Shown: positions 1-10,681 of the stretch, in pieces
Layout: each line of letters opens with the position of its first letter
Numbering within the stretch: the first letter of the stretch is position 1
Source: Bacteroidaceae bacterium
Lineage (GTDB): Bacteria; Bacteroidota; Bacteroidia; Bacteroidales; Bacteroidaceae
Length of the DNA stretch: 41,550 nt
NCBI GenBank assembly: GCA_017622815.1
Contig: JAGAQH010000030.1
Span: forward strand, 1 to 41,550
Direction of reading: 5' to 3'
The notes under the pieces: model-generated
What the model saw: only the letters and a program-made list of their open reading frames with translations
The model's database searches: none
Told to the model about the DNA's origin: nothing
Position numbers and translations under genes: made by a program

Positions 1-131
1 ATATGTCTGAAAAATCTGTGGAAATTTGGGAAGCATCAAAAAGCAGCCGAAAAATGCTAAATTTTAGAATTTACTGATAATTAAAGGTTTATATTTGGTT
101 ATTTCTGATTATTCTTGGTTGTTAGAGGCTT

Positions 132-1913
132 CTAAATACAAAGATAGAAAGCATCACTTCCTATACTCACCACACTATTGGGGATGTTTATACTCGTCAG
201 GCTGCTACAATCACTGAATGCCCGTCTTCCTATACGTTCAACTGTGGATGGTATTTTAAATGTTGTTAACTTAGACATTCCACTGAATGCGTAGTCCTTT
301 ATCTCCTTTATTTTTGTTTTTTCTATTGTAAAACTCGTGATATTATCACAACCCTCAAAACATTTACTTCCTATTTCTGTTATAGAACTGTCTAATGATA
401 CTTCTTGAAGATTGATACATTTGGAAAATGCATAATCCTCAATTATTTCAATCGTGGGTGGCAGAATCAAAGTATTCTTGTTCTCAGATTCTCTGATTCG
501 CGAATAGCCAAACTCCCTTCCCTGTTGAGATTTCTGTGATTGGAATATAGCGTTAAAAGGAGTGCCGGAGAAAGCGTATTTAGGCATTTTCTTTATTTGT
601 GTTTCACTTAAGTCGGCAAAGGTCAGGTTTTTACACCCATTAAAAATATAATTGCCAAATGTTTCAACAGATTGCGGCAGGGTAACTTCTTTTATTTTTG
701 TACAATATTCAAAAGCACCTTCCTGTATTGCTTTTATGTTATTGCCAAATGCAATGGTTTCTAAGTTATATTCTTCTGCAGCAACCTCGTTGCCAGTGCC
801 GGTCTTGTTGGCAAATGTTCTTTGTCTTATTTCTGTTATTCCATTTCCTATTGAAATGTGGCGTATGCCAGGGCATCCCATGAATGCCTGCTCTCCAAGG
901 AATGTTGTTACGTCGGGAATTGTCAAACGCTCAATTTCCAAAGAATAGCATTGAGTGAATGCTCCGGAACCGATTGAAGTTACTGCCGAGATGTTGGGAA
1001 ACGTCTTTAATTTATGACATTTGCCAAAGGCGTAATTTCCAATAAATGTAATTTTTGTTGCTTCGTTAAATACAACAGTTTCCAAATTTATGCAACCATA
1101 AAAAATAGAAGCAGGAATTTCCGTAGCCGTTTTGGGGAACGTAACTGTTTTTAGACTTGTACATCCTGAAAATGCTTCTGATTCATTGTTTTGCGACTTT
1201 ATGGTTGCATTGCTAAGATCAATACTTTCTAACTTTGTGCAACCTGCAAAGCACCTGTATCCAACAGATGTAATTTGGCTAAAGTCGGTAGGATTAAACT
1301 CCAAAATTTTACATCCATAAAATGAATTGTTGCCTACAGATGTTACATTACTTAAATCTCCCGCGCTTTGTAATGAATAGCATCTATCAAATGACTGAAT
1401 GCCTACTGCCGTAAGCTTTGAAGAAAATATAACTTTTTCTAATTTGCCACATGTACCAAAAACGTATTGGGGCAGATTACTGATATTGCTAAAATCGGGT
1501 ACCGATTGTAGGGATGGACATCCGGCAAATGCGTGTTCGCGCAAAGTTTCTATACTGGAACTGCCTCTTGACGATACTTCCATTAAGTTGTCACAGTTTG
1601 AAAACGCATAGGAATTTATAGTCTTAATTGTAGAAGGCAAGCTTACTTTTTCCAATTTGTCTTCTTGGTAAAATGCTTTACGTCCAATGCCTGTGACTTT
1701 GTACGTAGCATTGTCGTATGTAACACTTTCTGGAATTGTTACCACACCAACGTATGTGTCTGTTGTAACATCGCCCGTTTTGAAGGTAACTTCTACCTCT
1801 TTGTTGGCACTTGAGGTAATGGTGTAGTATATGTTGTCCTTTTCAAAATCATAGGCCAATATACCCATGCAATATGCAAATAGAAGAATTAAAATTGTTG
1901 TAGATTTTCTCAT
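132..1913 (-). CDS. BspA-like leucine-rich repeat (LRR_5) surface protein
   Basis: A 593-residue protein with a signal peptide (charged MRKS, then a hydrophobic stretch to about residue 20). Almost all the rest is degenerate 22-24-residue repeats of the type 'I-G-x-x-A-F-x-x-C-x-x-L', as in the LRR_5/BspA family of Bacteroidetes, Treponema and Trichomonas, whose members bind host proteins or other cells. The repeats run to the last residue (...SDAFYLCI, then TAG) with no type IX secretion tail, which many BspA relatives carry. Either the tail was lost or export and anchoring are by another route. The gene is AT-richer than the next 5 kb. It stands alone, with a probable promoter at 2076-2109 and a leader of about 150 bases. 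The family call is firm; ligand and location are inferred. Confidence 0.9.
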   Translation of the reverse strand: MRKSTTILILLFAYCMGILAYDFEKDNIYYTITSSANKEVEVTFKTGDVTTDTYVGVVTIPESVTYDNATYKVTGIGRKAFYQEDKLEKVSLPSTIKTINSYAFSNCDNLMEVSSRGSSSIETLREHAFAGCPSLQSVPDFSNISNLPQYVFGTCGKLEKVIFSSKLTAVGIQSFDRCYSLQSAGDLSNVTSVGNNSFYGCKILEFNPTDFSQITSVGYRCFAGCTKLESIDLSNATIKSQNNESEAFSGCTSLKTVTFPKTATEIPASIFYGCINLETVVFNEATKITFIGNYAFGKCHKLKTFPNISAVTSIGSGAFTQCYSLEIERLTIPDVTTFLGEQAFMGCPGIRHISIGNGITEIRQRTFANKTGTGNEVAAEEYNLETIAFGNNIKAIQEGAFEYCTKIKEVTLPQSVETFGNYIFNGCKNLTFADLSETQIKKMPKYAFSGTPFNAIFQSQKSQQGREFGYSRIRESENKNTLILPPTIEIIEDYAFSKCINLQEVSLDSSITEIGSKCFEGCDNITSFTIEKTKIKEIKDYAFSGMSKLTTFKIPSTVERIGRRAFSDCSSLTSINIPNSVVSIGSDAFYLCI

Positions 1914-2075
1914 AATGGTATGTTGTTTAGTGTGTTTATGCCGAAGGTTTGTTTTATTTGTACACGAACAGTTTCTTCAACCCTGTAAATTTCCCTGTTT
2001 ATTCATAGAGGGTAAATGTAAGTATATCCAACGCGCGGTCAAGCCTCACTTTTGTCAAATATACACTTTGCATCG

Positions 2076-2109
2076 CAAATTTACACATTAAATTATTAAT
2101 AAATGCAAA
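2076..2109 (-). promoter_or_regulatory. Probable promoter of the BspA-like gene
   Basis: On the minus strand a TTTG (2109-2106) is followed after 22 bases by TAAATTTG (2083-2076), matching the Bacteroidetes -33/-7 consensus. Transcription would start near 2068 and give a leader of about 150 bases. Confidence 0.5.
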
Positions 2110-2181
2110 AATAACAAAAAATTGCCTTTCACTTAAAATGTTTTCACCCAAACGACAACAGGCACCATAGCACCACAAGGC

Positions 2182-2199
2182 GTTGACAGGCGTTGACAG
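2182..2199 (+). repeat. Two-copy GTTGACAG direct repeat (10-base period)
   Basis: GTTGACAG occurs at 2182 and 2192, exactly one helical turn apart. The same heptamer array recurs at 3523-3574 and 7413-7432, so it is probably a binding site belonging to the accessory module. Confidence 0.7.
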
Positions 2200-2435
2200 C
2201 CATTTGCGCTCAGGGATATATTCGGATGGGGTATCCATGGGGGGATAAACTCATCCAACTGGGGAATTACTACTGCCAATCACGGATGTGCATATCGAAC
2301 GGGAAACGGACAGCGTTCCCTTTCTGTTTGATAAGTTTGTTTGTATCTTTCTGAGGGAAAAGAGAATATAGGACAGGATGCCTTGGGGCTGCCCTAAGGG
2401 GGGGGCATAAATAGCGCAAAAAAGTTGCCGGAAAA

Positions 2436-2468
2436 TTTGCAAAATGGGGGTGCATTGTTGTATATTTG
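2436..2468 (+). promoter_or_regulatory. Probable promoter of the first accessory-module gene
   Basis: TTTG at 2436-2439 and TATATTTG at 2461-2468 with a 21-base spacer match the Bacteroidetes promoter consensus. It would drive the gene at 2824 with a long leader. The bases after the -7 box (CAGTGCAAAAA) resemble those after the promoter at 3607 (CAGAGCGAAAG). Confidence 0.6.
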
Positions 2469-2823
2469 CAGTGCAAAAACGGAAAACTGCGAGTAAGCGA
2501 GAGCAATCAAACTCGTTTGAATTGCCGAGCGGGAGCAGGTTCAAGACCGCGAAGCGGGGCTTAAATCACCGGAAATCCTTTCTGCAAGCAGAAAGGCAGA
2601 GGAAGGCCCGAAACAGGATAGCACAGGATAACCCAGGATAACCCCATAAGGGGGACCCGGGAGGGAAACAAGAAATTTAGCGTCAGACAACAGAAAGACC
2701 TGCCACCGACCACGTGTGCGGGGGAGGCATTGTGCGCCTTTGAAAAACGGGAAACGGAAAACTAATTGAACCAGAAACTTGAAACTACCAGAAACTTGAA
2801 ACTTTATACAATATATTAAGCCT

Positions 2824-3258
2824 ATGGAAAACACTTTTATTGCAGGAGAGAGGCCGGAGAGGGAGCAAATTCTGGCATTGAGCCAACAGTTGGCGGCTCT
2901 GAACAAGCAGGTGACAGAACTGAAAATGGCAGTGCAACAGGTGAGCCGCCAGCACAAGGGGGAAGAAAACAAGCAACGGCCGGAGAAGGCGGCTCCGGAG
3001 TTCAGCCACCTTATCCAGCACGAGCAGGCAGAGAAACTGCTGGCACGCCTGCACCAGTTGATAGACGGTTGCCGGGGAGCGGACGTGGGCAGTGTGCTGC
3101 TACACTGCGTGCAGAAAAACTATCTGACGCGCAGACCCACACGCAAGGAGTTCATGTCGGAGTTCGAACTGCTGGGTTCCTGGGCCTCCATCCACAAGTA
3201 CATGGACGAGGGCAATCTGAACGCTCTGGAAAGAGCAAACAGAATATGCGTACTATAA
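2824..3258 (+). CDS. Unrecognised 144-residue protein with N-terminal coiled coil
   Basis: I do not recognise this family. Residues about 14-45 (ALSQQLAALNKQVTELKMAVQQV) have the heptad leucine/valine pattern of a coiled coil. A charged linker follows (about 46-58). The remainder is helical, with a tail containing TRRPTRKEFMSEFELLG. There is no signal peptide or membrane segment, so it is probably cytoplasmic and oligomeric. It is the first gene of the accessory module and is GC-rich like the following genes and unlike the BspA-like gene to its left. A role in DNA binding or partner assembly is a guess from context only. Confidence 0.7.
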   Translation: MENTFIAGERPEREQILALSQQLAALNKQVTELKMAVQQVSRQHKGEENKQRPEKAAPEFSHLIQHEQAEKLLARLHQLIDGCRGADVGSVLLHCVQKNYLTRRPTRKEFMSEFELLGSWASIHKYMDEGNLNALERANRICVL

Positions 3259-3347
3259 AAACGGAGCCGAAGGTCGACGCCCGGAGGGGCCGCAAGTCAA
3301 AGGCGAACCGACGCAGGAAGCGAGAGCAGAAGCAAAATTTATTTTGA
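3246..3347 (+). CDS. Possible 33-residue very basic peptide
   Basis: An ATG at 3246, inside the last codons of the preceding gene in another frame, opens a 33-codon frame ending in TGA at 3345-3347. The product (MRTIKTEPKVDARRGRKSK..., ending NRRRKREQKQNLF) has about 14 Arg/Lys. The overlap would allow translational coupling to the coiled-coil gene. Short conserved peptides are common in Bacteroidetes accessory modules of this kind, but I cannot assign this one to a family. It could be a chance frame in arginine-rich GC-rich sequence. Confidence 0.3.
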   Translation: MRTIKTEPKVDARRGRKSKANRRRKREQKQNLF

Positions 3348-3522
3348 TTATGCCGAGCAACAAGGAGGAAAAGACCGCGAAGCGGGATTAAACGGAAAAC
3401 GGAAAACTATTAGGACATACCCCCTCCGCTCGTCCCCCTAACTTAGAGGGACAAAAGAAAACGGAAACCTGAAACCTGAACGGCGCGAGCCTCCGAGTAC
3501 TCCGAGTTTCCGCCTTCATGCC

Positions 3523-3575
3523 GTTGACAGGAGTTGACAGAAGTTGACAGGGGTTGACATCAACCTGTGTCAACC
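3523..3575 (+). repeat. Iteron-like array: four GTTGACA direct repeats plus an inverted copy
   Basis: GTTGACA starts at 3523, 3533, 3543 and 3553, exactly 10 bases apart. An inverted TGTCAAC lies at 3568-3574, so 3552-3575 forms a palindrome around GGTTGACA. One-turn phasing means a protein would load on one face of the helix. The array lies eight bases before the -33 box of the promoter at 3583-3614, which suits an operator/activator site or an iteron origin for the replication-like protein encoded downstream. Confidence 0.75.
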
Positions 3576-3582
3576 TCTTTTT

Positions 3583-3614
3583 TTTGTTTTTGGCGGATTG
3601 CTGCAGTACCTTTG
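3583..3614 (+). promoter_or_regulatory. Promoter of the primase-like operon
   Basis: TTTG at 3583-3586 and TACCTTTG at 3607-3614 are separated by 20 bases, an excellent Bacteroidetes promoter. Transcription would begin near 3621 and run through the genes at 3699, 4130, 6515 and 7064. Confidence 0.65.
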
Positions 3615-3698
3615 CAGAGCGAAAGGAAAAACACAGGATAATCCGAAAAAACCAGGAGAGCCTGGGACTACCTATAACTCAAAAAACTCTATTTTACT

Positions 3699-4133
3699 AT
3701 GGAAAACACAATCCACTTCACCCCCGAGGTGAACATCCACGAGAGCGACAACAGCGTAAGAATCAACCTGAGCACACTAACCGGCGAGGAGCGCCGATGG
3801 CTGACGGAAATCTTCGGCAAGAAAGTGGCAGGCAGAATGAGTGTGGAGGGCGGCACACTGACATTCACGCCATACGCCTCCAACCCCCAGCAGAAAACGT
3901 TTCACAAAAGCGAGACCGTGGGACAGACAAAAGTGCAGGTAACAACAAAACTGGCAAAATTCTCCATCAGTCTGCCACGCACCACGAGCAAAGACATCAT
4001 GTGCCTGACCCTAATGGAGGAGAACAACGGGGTGGTGCGCCGCCTGCGCGAGGGACTCTACGAAAGCATGATCCGCACCGAGGCACAAGGCATAACATCC
4101 ACAGCGGAAATGACAGGAGGCATTGCAGCATGA
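3699..4133 (+). CDS. Unrecognised 144-residue protein coupled to primase-like gene
   Basis: I do not recognise the family. The protein is soluble-looking, with no signal peptide and a mix of predicted strands and a C-terminal helix (VVRRLREGLYESMIRTEAQGI). It starts MENTIHF; the unrelated-looking protein at 2824 also starts MENT. Its stop overlaps the start of the next gene in the sequence ATGA (4130-4133), so the two are almost certainly translationally coupled and probably work together. Position between the iteron-like array and a primase-like gene suggests an accessory replication or regulatory role, by context only. Confidence 0.75.
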   Translation: MENTIHFTPEVNIHESDNSVRINLSTLTGEERRWLTEIFGKKVAGRMSVEGGTLTFTPYASNPQQKTFHKSETVGQTKVQVTTKLAKFSISLPRTTSKDIMCLTLMEENNGVVRRLREGLYESMIRTEAQGITSTAEMTGGIAA

Positions 4134-6451
4134 AGCAGCCAGAACCGGACAACTGCATGACATACGTGCAGGGGGTGACCGACACCACACCCAAACCTCT
4201 TACACGACAGAGACTGGAGGCACTGCTGGACTCGGAGCAGACCAGAGAACTGGTACAGCGATGCCGTGCCGAGAAGGACGAAAACAGACAGAACCGGATA
4301 AAGGCAATGCTGCCGGCGGTGATGTTCAACGGACTGTTCTCGCAACAGAACTCGGCACGCTACATGACCTCTCCCACACGCACTAAACCCACACTCAGGG
4401 ATGCGCCCAACTACATACCCTCGGGCCTGTATGGCGTGGACATCGACGAGGACTGCAACCCCAGGGAACTCTTCCGCAAGGCAGGAATGGCCATAAAGGA
4501 ACGCCTGCGCATGCAACCGGCACAAGTGGTGGCCATGGCCTACGAATCGCCGCGGCGCGGACTGCGCCTGGTGGTGAAGCGACAAAGGGGACTGACCATA
4601 GCACAGGAGCAGGAACGCTGGGACCGGCTGCTGGGATTGCCATGCGACAAGAAGTGCAAGGACCTGGGGCGCCTGTACTTCCTCACCTCGCGAGAGCAAC
4701 TGATATACTACAACCCCGAACTGCTCTTCCCCTCCACCCCACCGGCAAAAGAGGATTTCCCCCCGGACGAGGCCATTGCCATGCCAGACACCGCAACACA
4801 GGGGCTGACCATAGACAAAAAGACACCGGCCATGCACCTACCCCCGGCACCGGACATCACCCATTACGACGGCATACCCCTGGAAGACATCGTGGAGGAA
4901 CTGCAACACACCGTGGGGGGAGGCGAGGCCATGCAGGGCAACCGCAACGCACAGGTCTTTGAGATGGCAGGACTGCTGCGCCACATAACGGGGCCCAACC
5001 ACACGCTGTTGCACACCCTCATACCCACCTACGGGCTCTCGGCCCTGGAACACCAGCGAACCATAAGCAATGCTCTCAGACGCACACCACTGCCATACCT
5101 GCCACAGGACCTGCAAAGGGCCATAGAACGATTGAAGAGCCACACATCTGCCACACCGCAGACCACTGCCGGACACTATGGCGAAATGCCGCCAGCCATG
5201 CCAGCCATACTGCCACAGGCCATAGAATGTTTGATAAGCGCCACACCGCAGACGTCACGCCCTGCCGTAGCAATGGGAGTGTTCTCTCCGCTCAGAATAC
5301 ACCTGCACGAGGTGAGTTTCCACTATATCAACAATATGGACACCGAACCGGCCTTCATGAACCTGCTCATTGCCGGACAGACAGAGGGAAAGACCGCCAT
5401 GCGGCAGCCCATAGACCACATACTGGCACCTATAGCACAGGCCGACAGGGACAGTCGCGAGAAGGAGGATGCATGGCGCGAAGAGTGCTCCACGCTGGGA
5501 GCCACAAAAAACAAGCCAAAGCCACCACGCATGCCCATACGCATAGTGCAGCCCGATATGACAAACCCGGCACTGGTAAAGCGCGCCAGGGACGCAGCGG
5601 GGGATTCGCTCTACACATATGCCGAAGAACTGGAAAAACTGCGCCGTCTGCAAGGACTGTCCGAGATAATACGCACGGCCTTCGACGTGGAGACATACGG
5701 ACAGGAGCGTGTGGGAGCACAGTCGATAAGCGACGTGGTGAAACTGAGATGGTGCTTCAACGTGTCCACCACGCCACACACGGCAAGAAACACATTCCGT
5801 TCCAACCTGACCGACGGCACACTGGCACGACTGGCACTGAGCACCATACAATCCGACCCCGACGACTGGGGAGAGGCACTGCCCGTCTACGGCAACTACG
5901 GCCCTGCCTATGACGAAATGATAAAACCATACATCGACCGCCTTGCCCAGGCCAAAGGGGTGATACACTGCCCGCAAGCTGAACAGTGGGCAGAAAGGGA
6001 AAGGCTGAGGCAAATAGACATTCTCAGGGAAAAGGATGCCCGCCACCACAAGCCATTTCTGTTCCGCAGCCTGATAATGGGGTTCTGGCGCGCGTGTATG
6101 CTATACATCATGCACGGATACAGATGGAGCCAGGAGATAGAACTGTTTGCATCCTGGACGGTGGATTACGACCTCTGGTGCAAGTTCCATTTCTTCGGCG
6201 ACATGATAGAAAACGCCACACAAAGCACCGCTCCCGACAATGCACGCTACAACACCAGCCTGCTCGCCCTGTTGCCAGACACCTTCACACGCGAACAGGC
6301 ACGCAACATGCGGCGCGACATAGGCAAGGGCACCTCGGCCAGGGAAGTGAGATGCATGCTAGGACAATGGACACACCGTGGCTTCATCCGTCTGGACGAG
6401 AAGCAGGGCATCTATGTGAAGGTTCAAAAACAAAGGCTATTATCATCATAA
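4130..6451 (+). CDS. BT4734/VirE-N-type primase-like protein with DUF3987-like C-terminal part
   Basis: A 773-residue protein. The ATG at 4130 is chosen over a much earlier in-frame ATG because it overlaps the previous stop (ATGA) and matches the family N terminus. Residues about 60-200 look like the BT4734_N ('VirE N-terminal') domain: a YGVDID segment with D104 and D106, followed by MAYESPRRGLRLVV (136-149), the layout of primase-polymerase-like domains. Residues about 200-390 are a linker and helical region. The C-terminal half resembles DUF3987-type ATPase regions and carries AGQTEGKT (415-422), fitting [AG]x4GK[ST]. Such proteins are common in Bacteroidetes mobile or phage-derived modules next to DUF4248 proteins and wall-degrading enzymes. 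The primase activity is inferred. Confidence 0.75.
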   Translation: MKQPEPDNCMTYVQGVTDTTPKPLTRQRLEALLDSEQTRELVQRCRAEKDENRQNRIKAMLPAVMFNGLFSQQNSARYMTSPTRTKPTLRDAPNYIPSGLYGVDIDEDCNPRELFRKAGMAIKERLRMQPAQVVAMAYESPRRGLRLVVKRQRGLTIAQEQERWDRLLGLPCDKKCKDLGRLYFLTSREQLIYYNPELLFPSTPPAKEDFPPDEAIAMPDTATQGLTIDKKTPAMHLPPAPDITHYDGIPLEDIVEELQHTVGGGEAMQGNRNAQVFEMAGLLRHITGPNHTLLHTLIPTYGLSALEHQRTISNALRRTPLPYLPQDLQRAIERLKSHTSATPQTTAGHYGEMPPAMPAILPQAIECLISATPQTSRPAVAMGVFSPLRIHLHEVSFHYINNMDTEPAFMNLLIAGQTEGKTAMRQPIDHILAPIAQADRDSREKEDAWREECSTLGATKNKPKPPRMPIRIVQPDMTNPALVKRARDAAGDSLYTYAEELEKLRRLQGLSEIIRTAFDVETYGQERVGAQSISDVVKLRWCFNVSTTPHTARNTFRSNLTDGTLARLALSTIQSDPDDWGEALPVYGNYGPAYDEMIKPYIDRLAQAKGVIHCPQAEQWAERERLRQIDILREKDARHHKPFLFRSLIMGFWRACMLYIMHGYRWSQEIELFASWTVDYDLWCKFHFFGDMIENATQSTAPDNARYNTSLLALLPDTFTREQARNMRRDIGKGTSAREVRCMLGQWTHRGFIRLDEKQGIYVKVQKQRLLSS

Positions 6452-6514
6452 CGCCAATGACCGATTTGGGTCTGAAAAAGGAATAGAAAGCACCACAAAA
6501 GACACACACCAACC

Positions 6515-7060
6515 ATGAAAGACACACAGCAACCGCGAGGAATTCGCAACAACAACCCTCTGAACATCCGCCATTCCGCAGACCGCTGGAAGGGGATGAG
6601 AACCAAACAGACCGACCCTGCCTTTGTGCAGTTCACTTCCATGGCTATGGGCTATCGTGCCGCATGGCGGGTACTGAACTCCTACCACCAGCGGTTCCTA
6701 AGGGAGCAACGGCCCTTTACACCACGCAACGTCATCCACCGATGGGCACCTCCTGCGGAAAACGATTCCCAAGCCTACCTGCGCACAGTATGCCTCCTGA
6801 CAGGACTGGGTGGGAACGAGGGCTTGCCATGGCCACAGGAAACCGGGATACTCTACAATCAGGATACCGACGAGAGAGAAGCCCCCGCCCGCCTCGTCCT
6901 CCTTCTCAAAGGTATGACCTGCGTGGAGTGTGGCATCGGCATGAGCAGCATCTGCGAACAAGACATAAGAAGAGGATATAAAATGGCATTCCAAAAGAAA
7001 AGTTCACGCACATCCCCAACCCAGGGAAAGCCTATGGTTTCTACCCGCCAACGAAAATGA
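6515..7060 (+). CDS. Phage structural protein P5-like protein
   Basis: A 181-residue protein opening with PRGIRNNNPLNIR, followed by W-x-G, DPAFVQF and GYRAAWRVL, then a region ending RWAPPAENDSQAYL. This is the pattern of proteins annotated in Bacteroidetes and phages as 'structural protein P5', thought to be lysozyme/transglycosylase-like. There is no signal peptide, as expected if release is phage-style or the protein acts inside. The gene begins 63 bases after the primase-like gene and ends three bases before the DUF4248 gene. In related modules this position is often held by an N-acetylmuramoyl-L-alanine amidase, so a cell-wall role for the module is plausible. The last 25 residues are basic and may be a lineage-specific tail. 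Confidence 0.75.
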   Translation: MKDTQQPRGIRNNNPLNIRHSADRWKGMRTKQTDPAFVQFTSMAMGYRAAWRVLNSYHQRFLREQRPFTPRNVIHRWAPPAENDSQAYLRTVCLLTGLGGNEGLPWPQETGILYNQDTDEREAPARLVLLLKGMTCVECGIGMSSICEQDIRRGYKMAFQKKSSRTSPTQGKPMVSTRQRK

Positions 7061-7063
7061 CCG

Positions 7064-7327
7064 ATGACAGAAAATACTCACAGTAACACACCGTGCCCTC
7101 CTCTCCCCAAAGTGGGATGGAGGAGGGGTGGATGCTCCTTCGGTCGCCTGGCCATGCTCTATTATCCCGACCATGCCTACAGGTCGGCCGTACGGCTCTT
7201 CAGGCAGGAAATACACCTGACACGCGGACTTTGGCAGGCATTGGAAAGAGCGGGCTACAACGACAAGTTGCGCATGCTCACACCACGGCAGATACAGGTA
7301 ATTGAAAAATTCCTTGGAGAGGCATGA
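7064..7327 (+). CDS. DUF4248 family protein with an odd N-terminal insertion
   Basis: An 87-residue protein. From about residue 25 it follows the DUF4248 pattern: SFGRLAMLYYPDHAYRSAVRLF, a tryptophan after about 15 residues (GLWQAL), then MLTPRQIQVIEKFLGE at the end. DUF4248 is a small Bacteroidetes family of unknown function repeatedly found beside VirE-N/DUF3987 proteins, which supports the module call. Residues about 9-26 (CPPLPKVGWRRGGC) are unlike the family and come from an inverted repeat at 7100-7135 that looks like an inserted intergenic hairpin kept in frame. The upstream gap is only three bases, so it belongs to the same transcript. Confidence 0.75.
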   Translation: MTENTHSNTPCPPLPKVGWRRGGCSFGRLAMLYYPDHAYRSAVRLFRQEIHLTRGLWQALERAGYNDKLRMLTPRQIQVIEKFLGEA

Positions 7328-7412
7328 GGAACGGAAATCGGAAACGCCCTGGGGGTGGAAGTCCGAGTTCTCCGAAGACTCCAAAAGGCAGAAAGCCGTT
7401 TCCGTTCGCCAA

Positions 7413-7432
7413 GCGTTGACAAGCATTGACAG
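7413..7432 (+). repeat. Two-copy (G/A)TTGACA repeat at the right edge of the accessory module
   Basis: GCGTTGACAA and GCATTGACAG follow each other with a 10-base period. Upstream at 7363-7375 is CCGAGTTCTCCGA, which also precedes the middle array (CCGAGTACTCCGA, 3493-3505). The pair therefore copies a composite block. Confidence 0.65.
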
Positions 7433-7441
7433 GGATTTGTA

Positions 7442-7474
7442 CAAAAAACGGGGGCAACCGTCAAGTTGCCCCCC
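7442..7474 (-). terminator. Rho-independent terminator of the V-ATPase operon
   Basis: Read on the minus strand, a perfect 9-bp stem (GGGGGCAAC / GTTGCCCCC, loop TTGACG; 7473-7450) is followed by GTTTTTTG. It lies 30 bases after the stop of the last operon gene. Confidence 0.85.
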
Positions 7475-7503
7475 GCTAACATAATGTTTCCTTAGATTTT
7501 CTA

Positions 7504-7962
<459 letters not shown>

Positions 7963-7984
7963 TTAATTTAATTGATATTGATTT

Positions 7985-9850
7985 TTATTTGATTTTACGT
8001 AAAGGATCATAGGGCTTGCCTCCGCCGGTGAAGTCGGCATTCTTGAAGAATTCCACGAAGGTAAGACGCATGGGGTGCACAAATGCACTGATCATGCTGA
8101 GGGCAAAGGTTATGCCATGACCCAGAAGCAGGATCAGTACCATTACCAATATGCGTGCCCACAGGGGGAAATCCGCTGTCATATCCAGCGCCAGGGTATT
8201 GAACACACCGCCAAGCACACCGCCGGTAAGACCAAGGGCAAACAGACGGATGTAGCTCAACAGGTCGCCCAGCAGTCCGGTGGCCATGCCATAGGTTTCC
8301 CACACGCCTCCGCCGATGTTGCTGAGCACACCCAGGGCGGGATTCTTGTAACTTGCCGGGTTGTTGTAGAGGAATATACCCAATGCACTTATACCTATTA
8401 TTCCGAAGAGGATGTACCTGATCCATGCAGCAAGTTCCACCCCACATGCAGGCAAGCCATACAATACTATGGCTCCAAGCAAGGCCACTACCCATGAGAA
8501 GGTTCCCACGGCATAAGGCCAGCCGTAGTTTCTCGCTGCCTTGCATCCCTTCAGTATCATGCCCAGAATTACCTGCACAAGACCTATTATCACTGACAGC
8601 ACCATCATGGGGCTATAACCGAAGATGGGACCGACACCGTTGTCATTCAGGAAGAAGGGTTTGATTGGCTGTATGAAGGCCCAGTCCTGTTGTGTAAGGT
8701 CTATGCCGAACACAGTACCCGTGGCCAGACCACACACAATGGTGGCACCGCCCAGCCACATGGCCAGTTTGCCGTAGCCCTTCATTTCCTCGGCCGGCTT
8801 CCTCGCAAGTATAAGTCCCACCAGGAGTATGAGCAGTCCGTAACCGGCATCGCCCATGCACAATCCGAAGAAGAGCATGAAGAAGGGGGCAAAGAACTGC
8901 GTGGGGTCAAGGTCGTTGTAGTTGGGCAGGGAGTACATCTTCAGGATGGGCTCAAACAGACTCGAGAAGCGTCCGTTGGTGATATGCACGGGAACATCGT
9001 CCTCGAAGGCAGGGTCCTCCATCTCGTAGTAGATGTGTTCCCTGTCAAGGTATTCGGTAAGGGGAGCGGTAGAATCGGCACGCACCCAACCGAGCATCAG
9101 GTGCAGGACATCGCCACAGGTCTTCTCCGAACTGAGATGCACCTTACTAAAGGAAATCTCGTTCTCCACCTCAACACGGCCTGCCTCCAGAACGGGGAGC
9201 AGGCTATTAGCCACGGCCGACATCTGCTGGCGCACCATGAACTTCTGCTTCTTCACCTCGCCGATCTCGGCATGCACCTGAGAGAGTGATTTCTGTGGCA
9301 GGGTGAGGTGTTCCGCCTGTATCTCCGGACGTGTCTCGGAGAAGGTGACGAAGTAAGTCTTCTTGTCATACTCGTTGACGGGTACGGCAAAGAACTGGTC
9401 CCGCCACTCTGCCTTGAACCTCTTGCTGGTGCAACGGTAGAAGTGAATCTCCATACCTATGGTCTCGGCCAGGTTCTGCACCTTCTCGGGAGAGAAGTCG
9501 CCCCAGGGGTCGAGCATTTCAAACTCCTTCTTCAGTTCGTCCTCCTCGTGGAGCAGGGCGTTCTCCTGCGCCTGCAGGCCCTCCACCTTCTCCAAGAGGC
9601 TGAGGGGAGTGTCGTACTCGGGAGTCTGCACACCTAACTTCAATGCATACTTTTTGCCGTAAATCTTCAGGAAGTCGAGTGCTGTAGAGTATCGGCGCTC
9701 CAGATAGATTGCCTCCTGCAACTCGGTGCTGGTGGCACCCTGCTGCAACTGGGTGACGTGTACGACGCCCAGTTCGCGGATGGTCTCTATGAAACTCTCG
9801 TATTCGCGGTCAGTCACCAAGAAGGTGAACTTCTTCATCTTTTCAATCAT
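7985..9850 (-). CDS. ntpI: V-type ATPase subunit I (stator membrane subunit)
   Basis: A 621-residue subunit a/I homologue. The N-terminal half (to about residue 320) is the cytoplasmic stator-contacting part with coiled-coil arms. The C-terminal half contains about seven to eight membrane helices. The conserved SYIRLFALGL segment starts at residue 532; R535 is the candidate arginine facing the rotor carboxylate. A second conserved helix contains GHGITFALSMISAFVHPMRLTFVEFF. The start at 9850 overlaps the end of subunit D by eight bases, indicating translational coupling. Length is normal for bacterial members. Confidence 0.95.
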   Translation of the reverse strand: MIEKMKKFTFLVTDREYESFIETIRELGVVHVTQLQQGATSTELQEAIYLERRYSTALDFLKIYGKKYALKLGVQTPEYDTPLSLLEKVEGLQAQENALLHEEDELKKEFEMLDPWGDFSPEKVQNLAETIGMEIHFYRCTSKRFKAEWRDQFFAVPVNEYDKKTYFVTFSETRPEIQAEHLTLPQKSLSQVHAEIGEVKKQKFMVRQQMSAVANSLLPVLEAGRVEVENEISFSKVHLSSEKTCGDVLHLMLGWVRADSTAPLTEYLDREHIYYEMEDPAFEDDVPVHITNGRFSSLFEPILKMYSLPNYNDLDPTQFFAPFFMLFFGLCMGDAGYGLLILLVGLILARKPAEEMKGYGKLAMWLGGATIVCGLATGTVFGIDLTQQDWAFIQPIKPFFLNDNGVGPIFGYSPMMVLSVIIGLVQVILGMILKGCKAARNYGWPYAVGTFSWVVALLGAIVLYGLPACGVELAAWIRYILFGIIGISALGIFLYNNPASYKNPALGVLSNIGGGVWETYGMATGLLGDLLSYIRLFALGLTGGVLGGVFNTLALDMTADFPLWARILVMVLILLLGHGITFALSMISAFVHPMRLTFVEFFKNADFTGGGKPYDPLRKIK

Positions 9851-10490
9851 AAGCCTCTACCTCCTCTCCTTCTGCTGATGATTCGGGTTCCACTGCCTGT
9901 GCGCGCTTGGCCTGAAGGCTCTTCAGAATCTTCTGACTGGACTTGGACAGGTTCTCCTCGTCCTCCATGAAGCGCTTAATCTTGCGTATGGCCTCCTGAT
10001 AGCCGGGAATCTGCACCTTCTCAAAGAGGTTCACCTTCTGTGTGGTCTTTCGGCGGGCATGGTCCAGCAGGTCCAGTTTTGCCAGCACGAATTCGCGCTC
10101 CACGGCCGTCTTGGCCAGTCCCTGCAGGAGTTGTATTCCGTCGAAGTACCACTTGGGGGCAGAGAAAAGTCCGAAGGGACGGACCTCCAGGCTGATGTTC
10201 AGCAACAAGGGCACGCGCACACCGGCAATCTTCTTCTCGCCGAGTTCCACGTCCTTGAGCGACACCAGCGAGGCGTCAAACTCTCCCCACAGAGCATACA
10301 TGGACTCGTAGCCTTCTATCTGCTGCTGGAGCCTTTCCTCCAGCACCTCGGCCTCGTCCTTGCACTTCTTCACCTCAAGACGCAGTGCCGTCTCCTTGCT
10401 CTTGATGATAGGCAAGGTACGCTGGCGCATCTTCAGGTTCTTCTCCAGGGCCTGCAGCGACGTTTTGTTAAACTGATATTTTATTGCCAT
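9843..10490 (-). CDS. ntpD: V-type ATPase subunit D (central stalk)
   Basis: A 215-residue subunit D, a long antiparallel coiled coil that turns inside the A3B3 head and passes rotation to the membrane ring. The N terminus (KYQFNKTSLQALEKNLKMRQRTLPIIKSKETALRLEVKKC) and the C-terminal helix (RKTTQKVNLFEKVQIPGYQEAIRKIKRFMEDEE) are typical, as is the VNLFE motif. The C-terminal tail is short and acidic (EGEEVEAYD). A gap of about 190 bases separates it from the upstream subunit B gene, unusual in an otherwise tight operon. Confidence 0.93.
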   Translation of the reverse strand: MAIKYQFNKTSLQALEKNLKMRQRTLPIIKSKETALRLEVKKCKDEAEVLEERLQQQIEGYESMYALWGEFDASLVSLKDVELGEKKIAGVRVPLLLNISLEVRPFGLFSAPKWYFDGIQLLQGLAKTAVEREFVLAKLDLLDHARRKTTQKVNLFEKVQIPGYQEAIRKIKRFMEDEENLSKSSQKILKSLQAKRAQAVEPESSAEGEEVEAYD

Positions 10491-10521
10491 GACTATTGGT
10501 AGGTACTACAAATTAGTTTAA

Positions 10522-10602
10522 TTATTTGTAGGTAAGTTCCATTAGAACTTTGGTGATTTCTTGTCTCTCGTTTGTCTCTTCCTTGTCTTCCATCAGTCCC
10601 AT
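10522..10602 (-). CDS. Possible 26-residue ORF or small-gene remnant between B and D
   Basis: In the 190-base gap between atpase B and D, an ATG at 10602 opens MGLMEDKEETNERQEITKV..., ending at TAA (10522-10524). The same frame is open upstream back into the end of subunit B except for one TAG (10609-10611), and that upstream part reads as a hydrophobic segment (SELLPIVPYILCLIEGT). It may be a small gene broken by a stop, a short peptide, or chance. Confidence 0.25.
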   Translation of the reverse strand: MGLMEDKEETNERQEITKVLMELTYK

Positions 10603-10681
10603 AGCCCGCTATGTTCCTTCTATCAGACAAAGAATATACGGCACGATAGGCAATAATTCACTCAAACCTAATTTATAGAAC

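Follow-up and report, generated by a model that had tools for sequence, protein, structure and literature searches.

Are the short GTTGACA repeats that surround a primase-like gene block in a Bacteroidaceae genome read by a protein, and if so, by which one and to what effect? The repeats lie in a stretch of 41,550 nucleotides (contig JAGAQH010000030.1 of assembly GCA_017622815.1; the whole stretch is called the window here), which is contig C21 of a Prevotella-like genome (2.57 Mb, 88% complete, 42 contigs). They form three arrays, A, B and C (Table 1), the longest of which, B, separates gene 2824 from the operon of the primase-like gene. The reading favoured here, with confidence a little short of even, is that array B would combine an operator with a terminator and would be recognised by a dedicated protein, for which the product of gene 2824 is the likeliest candidate.

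The arrays themselves were first described in an original prediction made from the letters of the window, and their positions, copies and period hold: the period is exactly 10 base pairs (bp) in all three. It is the spacing that is unusual. Taken singly, the heptamer RTTGACA shows no enrichment in the window (19 copies against an expected 13.4, with 19 or more in 9 of 100 shuffles), and a statistic for clusters of any 7-mer on both strands does not single out the window array, 11 of 40 shuffles scoring as high; pairs spaced by 10 bp occur five times, and at most once in any of 300 dinucleotide shuffles. Across the 2.57 Mb of the genome the exact pair occurs nine times and the reversed pattern not at all: five pairs are in the window, two on contig C14 and two on C28, and C11 carries a diverged array with two-mismatch pairs. 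Seven of the nine exact pairs are in VirE or HU/smalltalk loci, which supports a link between array and module within this genome; the other two belong to the C28 copy of the C14 leader, with no module gene found within 16 kb.

The junction between gene 2824 and the primase operon

Array B occupies the space between the stop codon of gene 2824 and a promoter-like site ahead of the 3699-primase-P5-DUF4248 operon, and reads as four direct copies of GTTGACA, two inverted copies (the inner one decayed) and then CTCTTTTTTTTG. In a simple scan its hairpin is the sole plus-strand terminator-like site within 2000-7700, and a stable hairpin followed by a T-run 3' of a gene is what an intrinsic terminator consists of. 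Only two plus-strand promoter-like sites were seen within 1900-7700 (Table 1), by what we take to be the Bacteroidetes-type consensus. The hairpin T-run contains the TTTG of the second of these, and the site therefore appears to end gene 2824 and to start the next operon. Within the array the heptamer is conserved and the spacers are in part variable.

The same arrangement recurs wherever the C-terminal domain of the gene 2824 product has a close relative. This domain is about 60% identical to the ends of larger proteins encoded at C11 of the same genome and in G191 and G222 (477 and 438 amino acids), which belong to two other genera of the family. Among 399 family genomes searched with it, there are 10 with a match at E 1e-4; values below 1e-30 are confined to the own genome, G191 and G222, which gives four close loci, two of them in this genome (window and C11). 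In all four, the array stands directly 3' of the stop codon of the 2824-type gene and is followed by a T-run and a TAnnTTTG-like box (the variant TTGCTTTG in G222), so that its place beside the module promoter is fixed. The heptamer itself has changed in concert. At its third position the window and C11 have T where G191 and G222 have G, giving TTGA vs. TGGA in every direct copy (4/4 agreeing in the window, G191 and G222, 3/3 in C11), and the inverted copies show the matching change from A to C, apart from a single T in G191. This is the concerted evolution expected of an operator array, seen in four sequences only, and it includes copies outside the stem. The arrays and their positions, the promoter- and terminator-like signals and the concerted change of the orthologous arrays are direct observations.

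An unlikely reading of array B is that the repeats exist only through the long hairpin and its T-run, with no protein reader. All four loci fold well (folding energy -26.6 to -35.3, z -3.1 to -7.7), 90.3% of the pairs in the shared stem are conserved (32-42% when it is slid), and three pairs are changed on both sides. In the window's own predicted fold, moreover, each of the four direct copies takes part in pairs, the first two weakly with one another, which also tells against a reader. However, in the predicted folds of G191 and G222 the column-43 copy is unpaired and the column-13 copy pairs with the T-run by G-U only, and both have changed like the rest; the stem alone therefore does not force their change. 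Nor does a stem give any reason for neighbouring direct copies to be alike, and the AAACTTTC and AATCATTCCG arrays of other modules are placed, as judged by eye, outside the hairpins there. Array B is thus conserved both as a hairpin and as a repeat, and the hairpin does not fully account for the conservation of the repeat.

The concerted change of the copies in two relatives suggests that a dedicated protein reads the repeats, and we infer its binding, its identity and the sign of regulation. Array B would end transcription of gene 2824 and control the adjoining promoter of the 3699-primase-endolysin-DUF4248 operon. The protein would occupy the heptamers cooperatively, along a single face of the helix and on either side of the dyad; it would most likely be the 2824 product, probably binding through its C-terminal helical domain and dimerised by its coiled coil. 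Repression would be a simpler guess than activation because the site abuts the -33 box. The original prediction had made the arrays the binding site of one of two unrecognised proteins, the products of genes 2824 and 3699. A module-linked operator with a plausible reader agrees with this as far as 2824 is concerned; 3699 fits less well, because the 2824 domain is present at all four array loci and no homologue of 3699 was found at the paralogous locus C11. By eye, the genes 3' of the array in G191 and G222 are also of another type than 3699.

Several results weigh against this operator reading or against its choice of reader. The close loci are only four, two of them in one genome, and two against two cannot link changes in the protein to changes in the motif. 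The 2824 product passes no family cut-off in profile searches, and its structure model, from a single sequence, is weak (coiled coil and helices, mean predicted local distance difference test score 64.5). In the stretches fetched for the seven weaker matches to the domain (E 1e-8 to 1e-4), no 10-bp TTGACA pair or TGGA triplet was found, these being the only motifs sought. Ten sister genomes carry GTTGACA pairs without a close 2824-type gene, which among 139 genomes of the genus is found in the own genome only. TGGA pairs elsewhere in G191 and G222 are near the control level. Arrays seen by eye at C11, C36, L087 and L308 fail the test for phased repeats described below. Near-identical HU genes of this genome are accompanied by differently worded arrays, so the wording need not follow the adjacent protein. 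Finally, the 2824 domain is not detectably related to the C-terminal part of the S24 proteins that precede some arrays elsewhere, and therefore the notion that the gene before the array encodes its reader is one of position only.

Two extensions of this operator reading were tried and rejected. The first was a regulon in trans: three of five TGGA hits in G191 and four of eight in G222 are off the locus, vs. three and three for reversed-pattern controls. The second was a DNA-binding domain common to all the upstream genes: their C-terminal parts resemble one another by eye, but in hhalign the 2824 domain reaches a probability of 0.1% with both the S24 C-terminal and the mixed alignments. Close relatives of 2824 are absent from the viral contigs searched, and are confined to the own genome among 393 genomes of the order and to G191 among 19 genomes of its genus.

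Table 1. Features of the window around array B, with the loci of inverted-array elements elsewhere.
Feature	Position	Strand	Description
Array A	2182..2198	+	GTTGACA x2 (2182, 2192), period 10
Promoter-like site	2436..2468	+	TTTG-21-TATATTTG, Bacteroidetes-type; ahead of gene 2824
Gene 2824	2824..3258	+	144 amino acids; predicted coiled coil (13-47) and helical C-terminal domain; proposed array reader
Array B, direct part	3523..3559	+	GTTGACA x4 (3523, 3533, 3543, 3553), period 10
Hairpin and T-run	3549..3585	+	12 pairs (simple scan), intrinsic-terminator-like; stem built from array copies
Array B, inverted half	3558..3574	-	GTTGACA 3568-3574 and decayed GTTGATG 3558-3564, 10 bp apart
Promoter-like site	3583..3614	+	TTTG-20-TACCTTTG, Bacteroidetes-type; -33 box inside hairpin T-run
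Gene 3699	3699..4133	+	144 amino acids; without family match; homologues at primase modules elsewhere
Primase-helicase-like gene	4130..6451	+	773 amino acids; weak BT4734-like_N match; P-loop-like AGQTEGKT
P5/endolysin-like gene	6515..7060	+	181 amino acids; phage family phrog_873, endolysin, 6e-31
DUF4248 gene	7064..7327	+	87 amino acids; solid profile match, 4.8e-16
Array C	7415..7431	+	GTTGACA (7415) and ATTGACA (7425), period 10
Inverted-array loci	L366, L367, L369, L400, L401, L455, L461, L462, L466, L468, L480		HU/smalltalk leaders

The genes of the block are those originally described, with open reading frames (ORFs) beginning at 2824, 3699, 4130, 6515 and 7064, and the P5-like and DUF4248 assignments of the last two are borne out by their profile matches. 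The label of a BT4734/VirE-N primase for the protein of 4130-6451 stands in part. Homology speaks for it; the match to BT4734-like_N covers the profile end only (E 2.5e-4) and at 21.6 bits misses the curated cut-off of 22.4 by 0.8 bit, and "primase-like" is kept here by homology only. The P-loop-like motif, AGQTEGKT, is at residue 415. The homologue at C11 is itself a weak DUF3987/BT4734 match, under the cut-offs. Gene 3699 has homologues at four primase modules of other genomes (G246, G164 and G219, twice in the last).

Arrays at other primase modules and in HU/smalltalk leaders

If the arrays belong to the primase module, are they found with it elsewhere? The comparison covered 40 regions, of which 35 are primase loci from other genomes and 2 from this genome; the remaining 3 are array loci from sister species. 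The 10-bp TTGACA pair is absent from all 35 VirE loci of other genomes, and GTTGACA is therefore not a universal mark of the module. The opposite approach led to the same rejection: a scan for three TTGACA at 10 bp gave at least 120 genome-contig stretches and 71 viral-contig stretches, and tblastn with the module proteins on these 191 array loci found one weak primase match (L286, E 1e-4), in a set from which the own genome or its near kin were possibly left out.

What recurs across modules is a phased array of some motif at the place upstream of the primase gene. Proteins of this primase-like kind were found in 67 of 201 genomes sampled from the family. All three primase matches of the present genome have an array, worded GTTGACA at C21 and C11 and AAACTTTC at C36, where it adjoins a divergent gene that by eye is S24-like. 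Inspection by eye of the same place at other loci shows AAACTTTC at L065, L068, L078 and L057 (the last in this genome), AATCATTCCG at L059, AAACnnnTTCC at L087, GGAGTTA at L091 and TTTCTGAA at L060; at four of the scanned loci (L059, L065, L068, L087) the array is preceded by a Peptidase S24 gene, which is of regulator type. Phased chains of any motif, with spacings of 8-12 bp, were found upstream of 18 of 34 primase genes vs. 8 of 39 downstream (Fisher p 0.007), the downstream figure being itself above the 2-3% expected from shuffles. With all spacings at 10-12 bp the counts are 9/34 and 0/39 (p 5e-4), a cut chosen after seeing the data. Five of the 39 loci, having fewer than 1000 bases upstream, were dropped from the upstream set, and the statistic was designed after a first one, for 7-mer clusters, did not clearly separate upstream from downstream.

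Some of these loci have further peculiarities. Primase modules stand behind restriction-modification or other defence-like genes (named by eye) at L308, L309, L064, L080 and L085, with an HsdR-like ORF, again by eye, preceding the 2824-type gene at L308 and L309. Inside the primase gene of L060 and L063 (about 4484-4505 and 5835-5856, minus strand) the coding sequence itself holds TTGACA repeats with a 7-bp period. L076, also a primase locus, has inverted 8-10 bp tandem arrays around an AT-rich core at 10483-10650.

A second type of element carries the GTTGACA string. On contig C14, a smalltalk gene (NF033879) and an HU-HIG gene (PF18291) are preceded by two GTTGACA arrays that point towards one another over about 100 bp of AT-rich DNA (GC 0.30). 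The C28 element is a copy of this leader (86% identity over 154 bp and 77% over 128 bp; no module gene by tblastn in 16 kb), and C11 and C2 have similarly built elements made of different repeats (GTGACA at 8-9 bp, CAGTTAT at 8 bp), their HU genes being 88-89% identical in DNA to that of C14. The smalltalk leaders of C2 and C17 (L366, L368) have near-perfect 10-bp tandems, of six and four copies, directly ahead of a TATCTTTGC box. Smalltalk genes were found in at least 69 of 151 genomes sampled from the family. Inverted arrays around AT-rich cores, mostly of differing wording, were found in 11 of 79 smalltalk entries (77 distinct loci, 119 kb; leaders hand-picked, not random, among the matches listed), vs. 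1 of 29 control atpK loci (93 kb) and none of 1580 shuffled leaders. The difference from the atpK control has p 0.01 per base and p 0.17, not significant, per locus; with the array-selected genome-contig loci added as control it has p 1.5e-6. Two of 40 smalltalk loci, with fewer than 400 bases, were dropped in one analysis. In 9 of 12 cores the inverted repeats surpass those of every one of 40 shuffles; the folding energy of the C14 core is no better than that of its shuffles (z 0.6).

Arrays A and C may be related to this type of element. Array A matches the left half of the C14 element at 85% over 41 bp (2171-2211), and array C has 24 of 31 bases in common with the stretch of array A, which suggests that both are better read as remnants or halves of C14-type elements than as promoter operators. 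They would then be parts of related elements, probably of the same island. Array C adjoins the DUF4248 stop codon on one side and the terminator-like hairpin of the convergent ATP-synt_C gene (atpK) on the other, and metG (PF09334) is on C14 just behind the HU-HIG gene. In relatives, metG directly follows atpK at 4 of 29 loci, with a nucleotidyltransferase gene in that place at 10 others and little sequence left at a few. Contigs C21 and C14 both begin near sequence of the BspA-type leucine-rich repeat (LRR) kind. This synteny suggests that C21:1-7432 and C14:1 to about 2900 belong to a single insertion between atpK and metG. The BspA-type LRR gene of the window (132-1913, minus strand; LRR_5, E 9e-109) stops inside an LRR and adjoins the start of the contig.

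Do these islands replicate? One possibility, which we regard as unlikely, is that the primase/HU/smalltalk islands of Bacteroidales would be disguised replicons: each unit would have its private repeat wording, with phased arrays at the primase operon, the inverted arrays on the HU side, set around an AT-rich palindrome, would act as an origin-like or cruciform switch, the wording would turn over like plasmid incompatibility determinants while the genes are conserved, and the window arrays would be one private set copied within the island. The HU-side elements may be origins or cruciform switches. Another unlikely reading, for the arrays themselves, is an iteron replication origin, at which an initiator or the primase-helicase would let the island replicate locally. 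The helical phasing of short repeats next to a primase-like gene invites this reading, and VirE and DUF3987 ATPases are described as predicted helicases of mobile-element replication (PMC5862659). The inverted arrays around AT-rich cores in the HU/smalltalk leaders have an origin-like build, and a stretch 61-120 bp before array A has a GC content of 0.20. The wording on the HU and primase sides agrees in this genome, the C14 leader also having GTTGACA, and looks alike in G188 (AAACTTTAG at L468, AACTTTAA at L074), a second genome where the two sides may share it; in G153, G164, G178 and G191, however, it differs. Array B, moreover, sits within a terminator-promoter junction, and whereas the HU/smalltalk leader elements do have an AT-rich core, GC is 0.42-0.53 at and after arrays B and C (0.45 and 0.42 for the 60 bp at and after B). 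An origin is therefore less likely for array B. Of the two functions originally offered, iteron origin and module-specific operator, the operator is the better supported for array B.

The same string in sister species

In sister species the GTTGACA string is used in a second setting, the leaders behind BspA genes. Among 60 other genomes of the genus there are 11 exact pairs, 8 behind BspA genes and 3 inside long ORFs. None of the 11 has a VirE/DUF4248 module beside it in the flanks seen, which mostly extend to 1.5 kb or less; like the 35 primase loci lacking the pair, this speaks against the suggestion that the array generally marks VirE-N/DUF4248 modules. A helix-turn-helix (HTH) gene follows the BspA-linked pair in the three loci with enough sequence. 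The array of G008 is followed by a recombinase fragment that carries an arm DNA-binding domain (PF17293), and a DUF5675 gene, an HU-type gene and a weak DUF3987-type one lie 1-4.3 kb before it, the last of these ending 1.4 kb before. At L053 (7536-9841), L012, L014-L017, L019, L020 and L022, a BspA LRR gene precedes a conserved leader that contains 10-bp arrays; several of these contigs break off at that point, as they would at a surface-protein cassette that is present in many copies and possibly shuffles.

These neighbors bear on another, improbable alternative, namely that the arrays are arm-type sites of a tyrosine recombinase or are bound by an OmpR-type response regulator, such regulators binding 10-bp direct repeats. 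The eight BspA-linked pairs, with an HTH gene next in three, and the PF17293 fragment in G008 would fit such a factor. By eye, however, neither a recombinase nor a response regulator was recognised among the ORFs of the C11 module or of window 1-10000, and in two other genera the array goes along with the 2824-type gene. Last, it is very improbable that the repeats are neutral or expression-tuning tandems whose 10-bp units expand and contract near promoters: the near-perfect tandems of the C2 and C17 leaders, the fast turnover of wording and the excess of phased chains in the downstream control regions are of this kind, but array B keeps its heptamer while its spacers partly vary, and its orthologous position is kept across genera.

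Comparison with known systems

In the open-licence literature we found no description of repeat arrays at primase/HU modules and no assigned function for primase/smalltalk modules; VirE, DUF4248 and smalltalk genes do appear in the expression tables of one study (PMC10434189). The preferred operator-terminator reading of array B offers a control site for which a candidate reader can be named; together with a recurring HU-side element of mostly locus-specific repeats, it would allow experiments on whether the modules are regulators, satellites or dormant replicons. The concerted change from TTGA to TGGA would serve as a natural test of binding specificity.

Operators of the OmpR/PhoB type consist of tandem direct repeats of 10-11 bp. 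Array B is like them in having a short core, one copy per helical turn, in tandem and adjacent to a promoter; it differs in its dyad with inverted copies and its merging with a terminator, and no response regulator was seen among the neighboring ORFs. The iteron origins of theta plasmids and phages have periods of about 17-22 bp. The likeness here is in tandem direct repeats beside a primase/helicase-like gene and, on the HU side, in the flanking of an AT-rich core; in contrast, the present arrays have periods of 8-11 bp, and array B has no AT-rich core.

For the genes, a link of BT4734-like archaeo-eukaryotic primases and VirE/DUF3987 helicases to mobile elements was already known (PMC5862659). 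The protein of 4130-6451 resembles these primases by its weak profile match and by homology, whereas upstream repeat arrays are not treated in the passages of that work considered here. For the HU-side elements, the capsule locus of P. gingivalis is the closest comparison: it has a 77-bp inverted repeat that is bound by the HU protein PG0121 (PMC3969353). Both cases join a large inverted repeat in a Bacteroidales leader to an HU-family protein. In P. gingivalis the HU is an ordinary one of about 10 kDa and the arms are long (77 bp, 8 mismatches), vs. arrays of short repeats around an AT-rich core here; binding of an HU-family protein to the HU-side elements would have a precedent.

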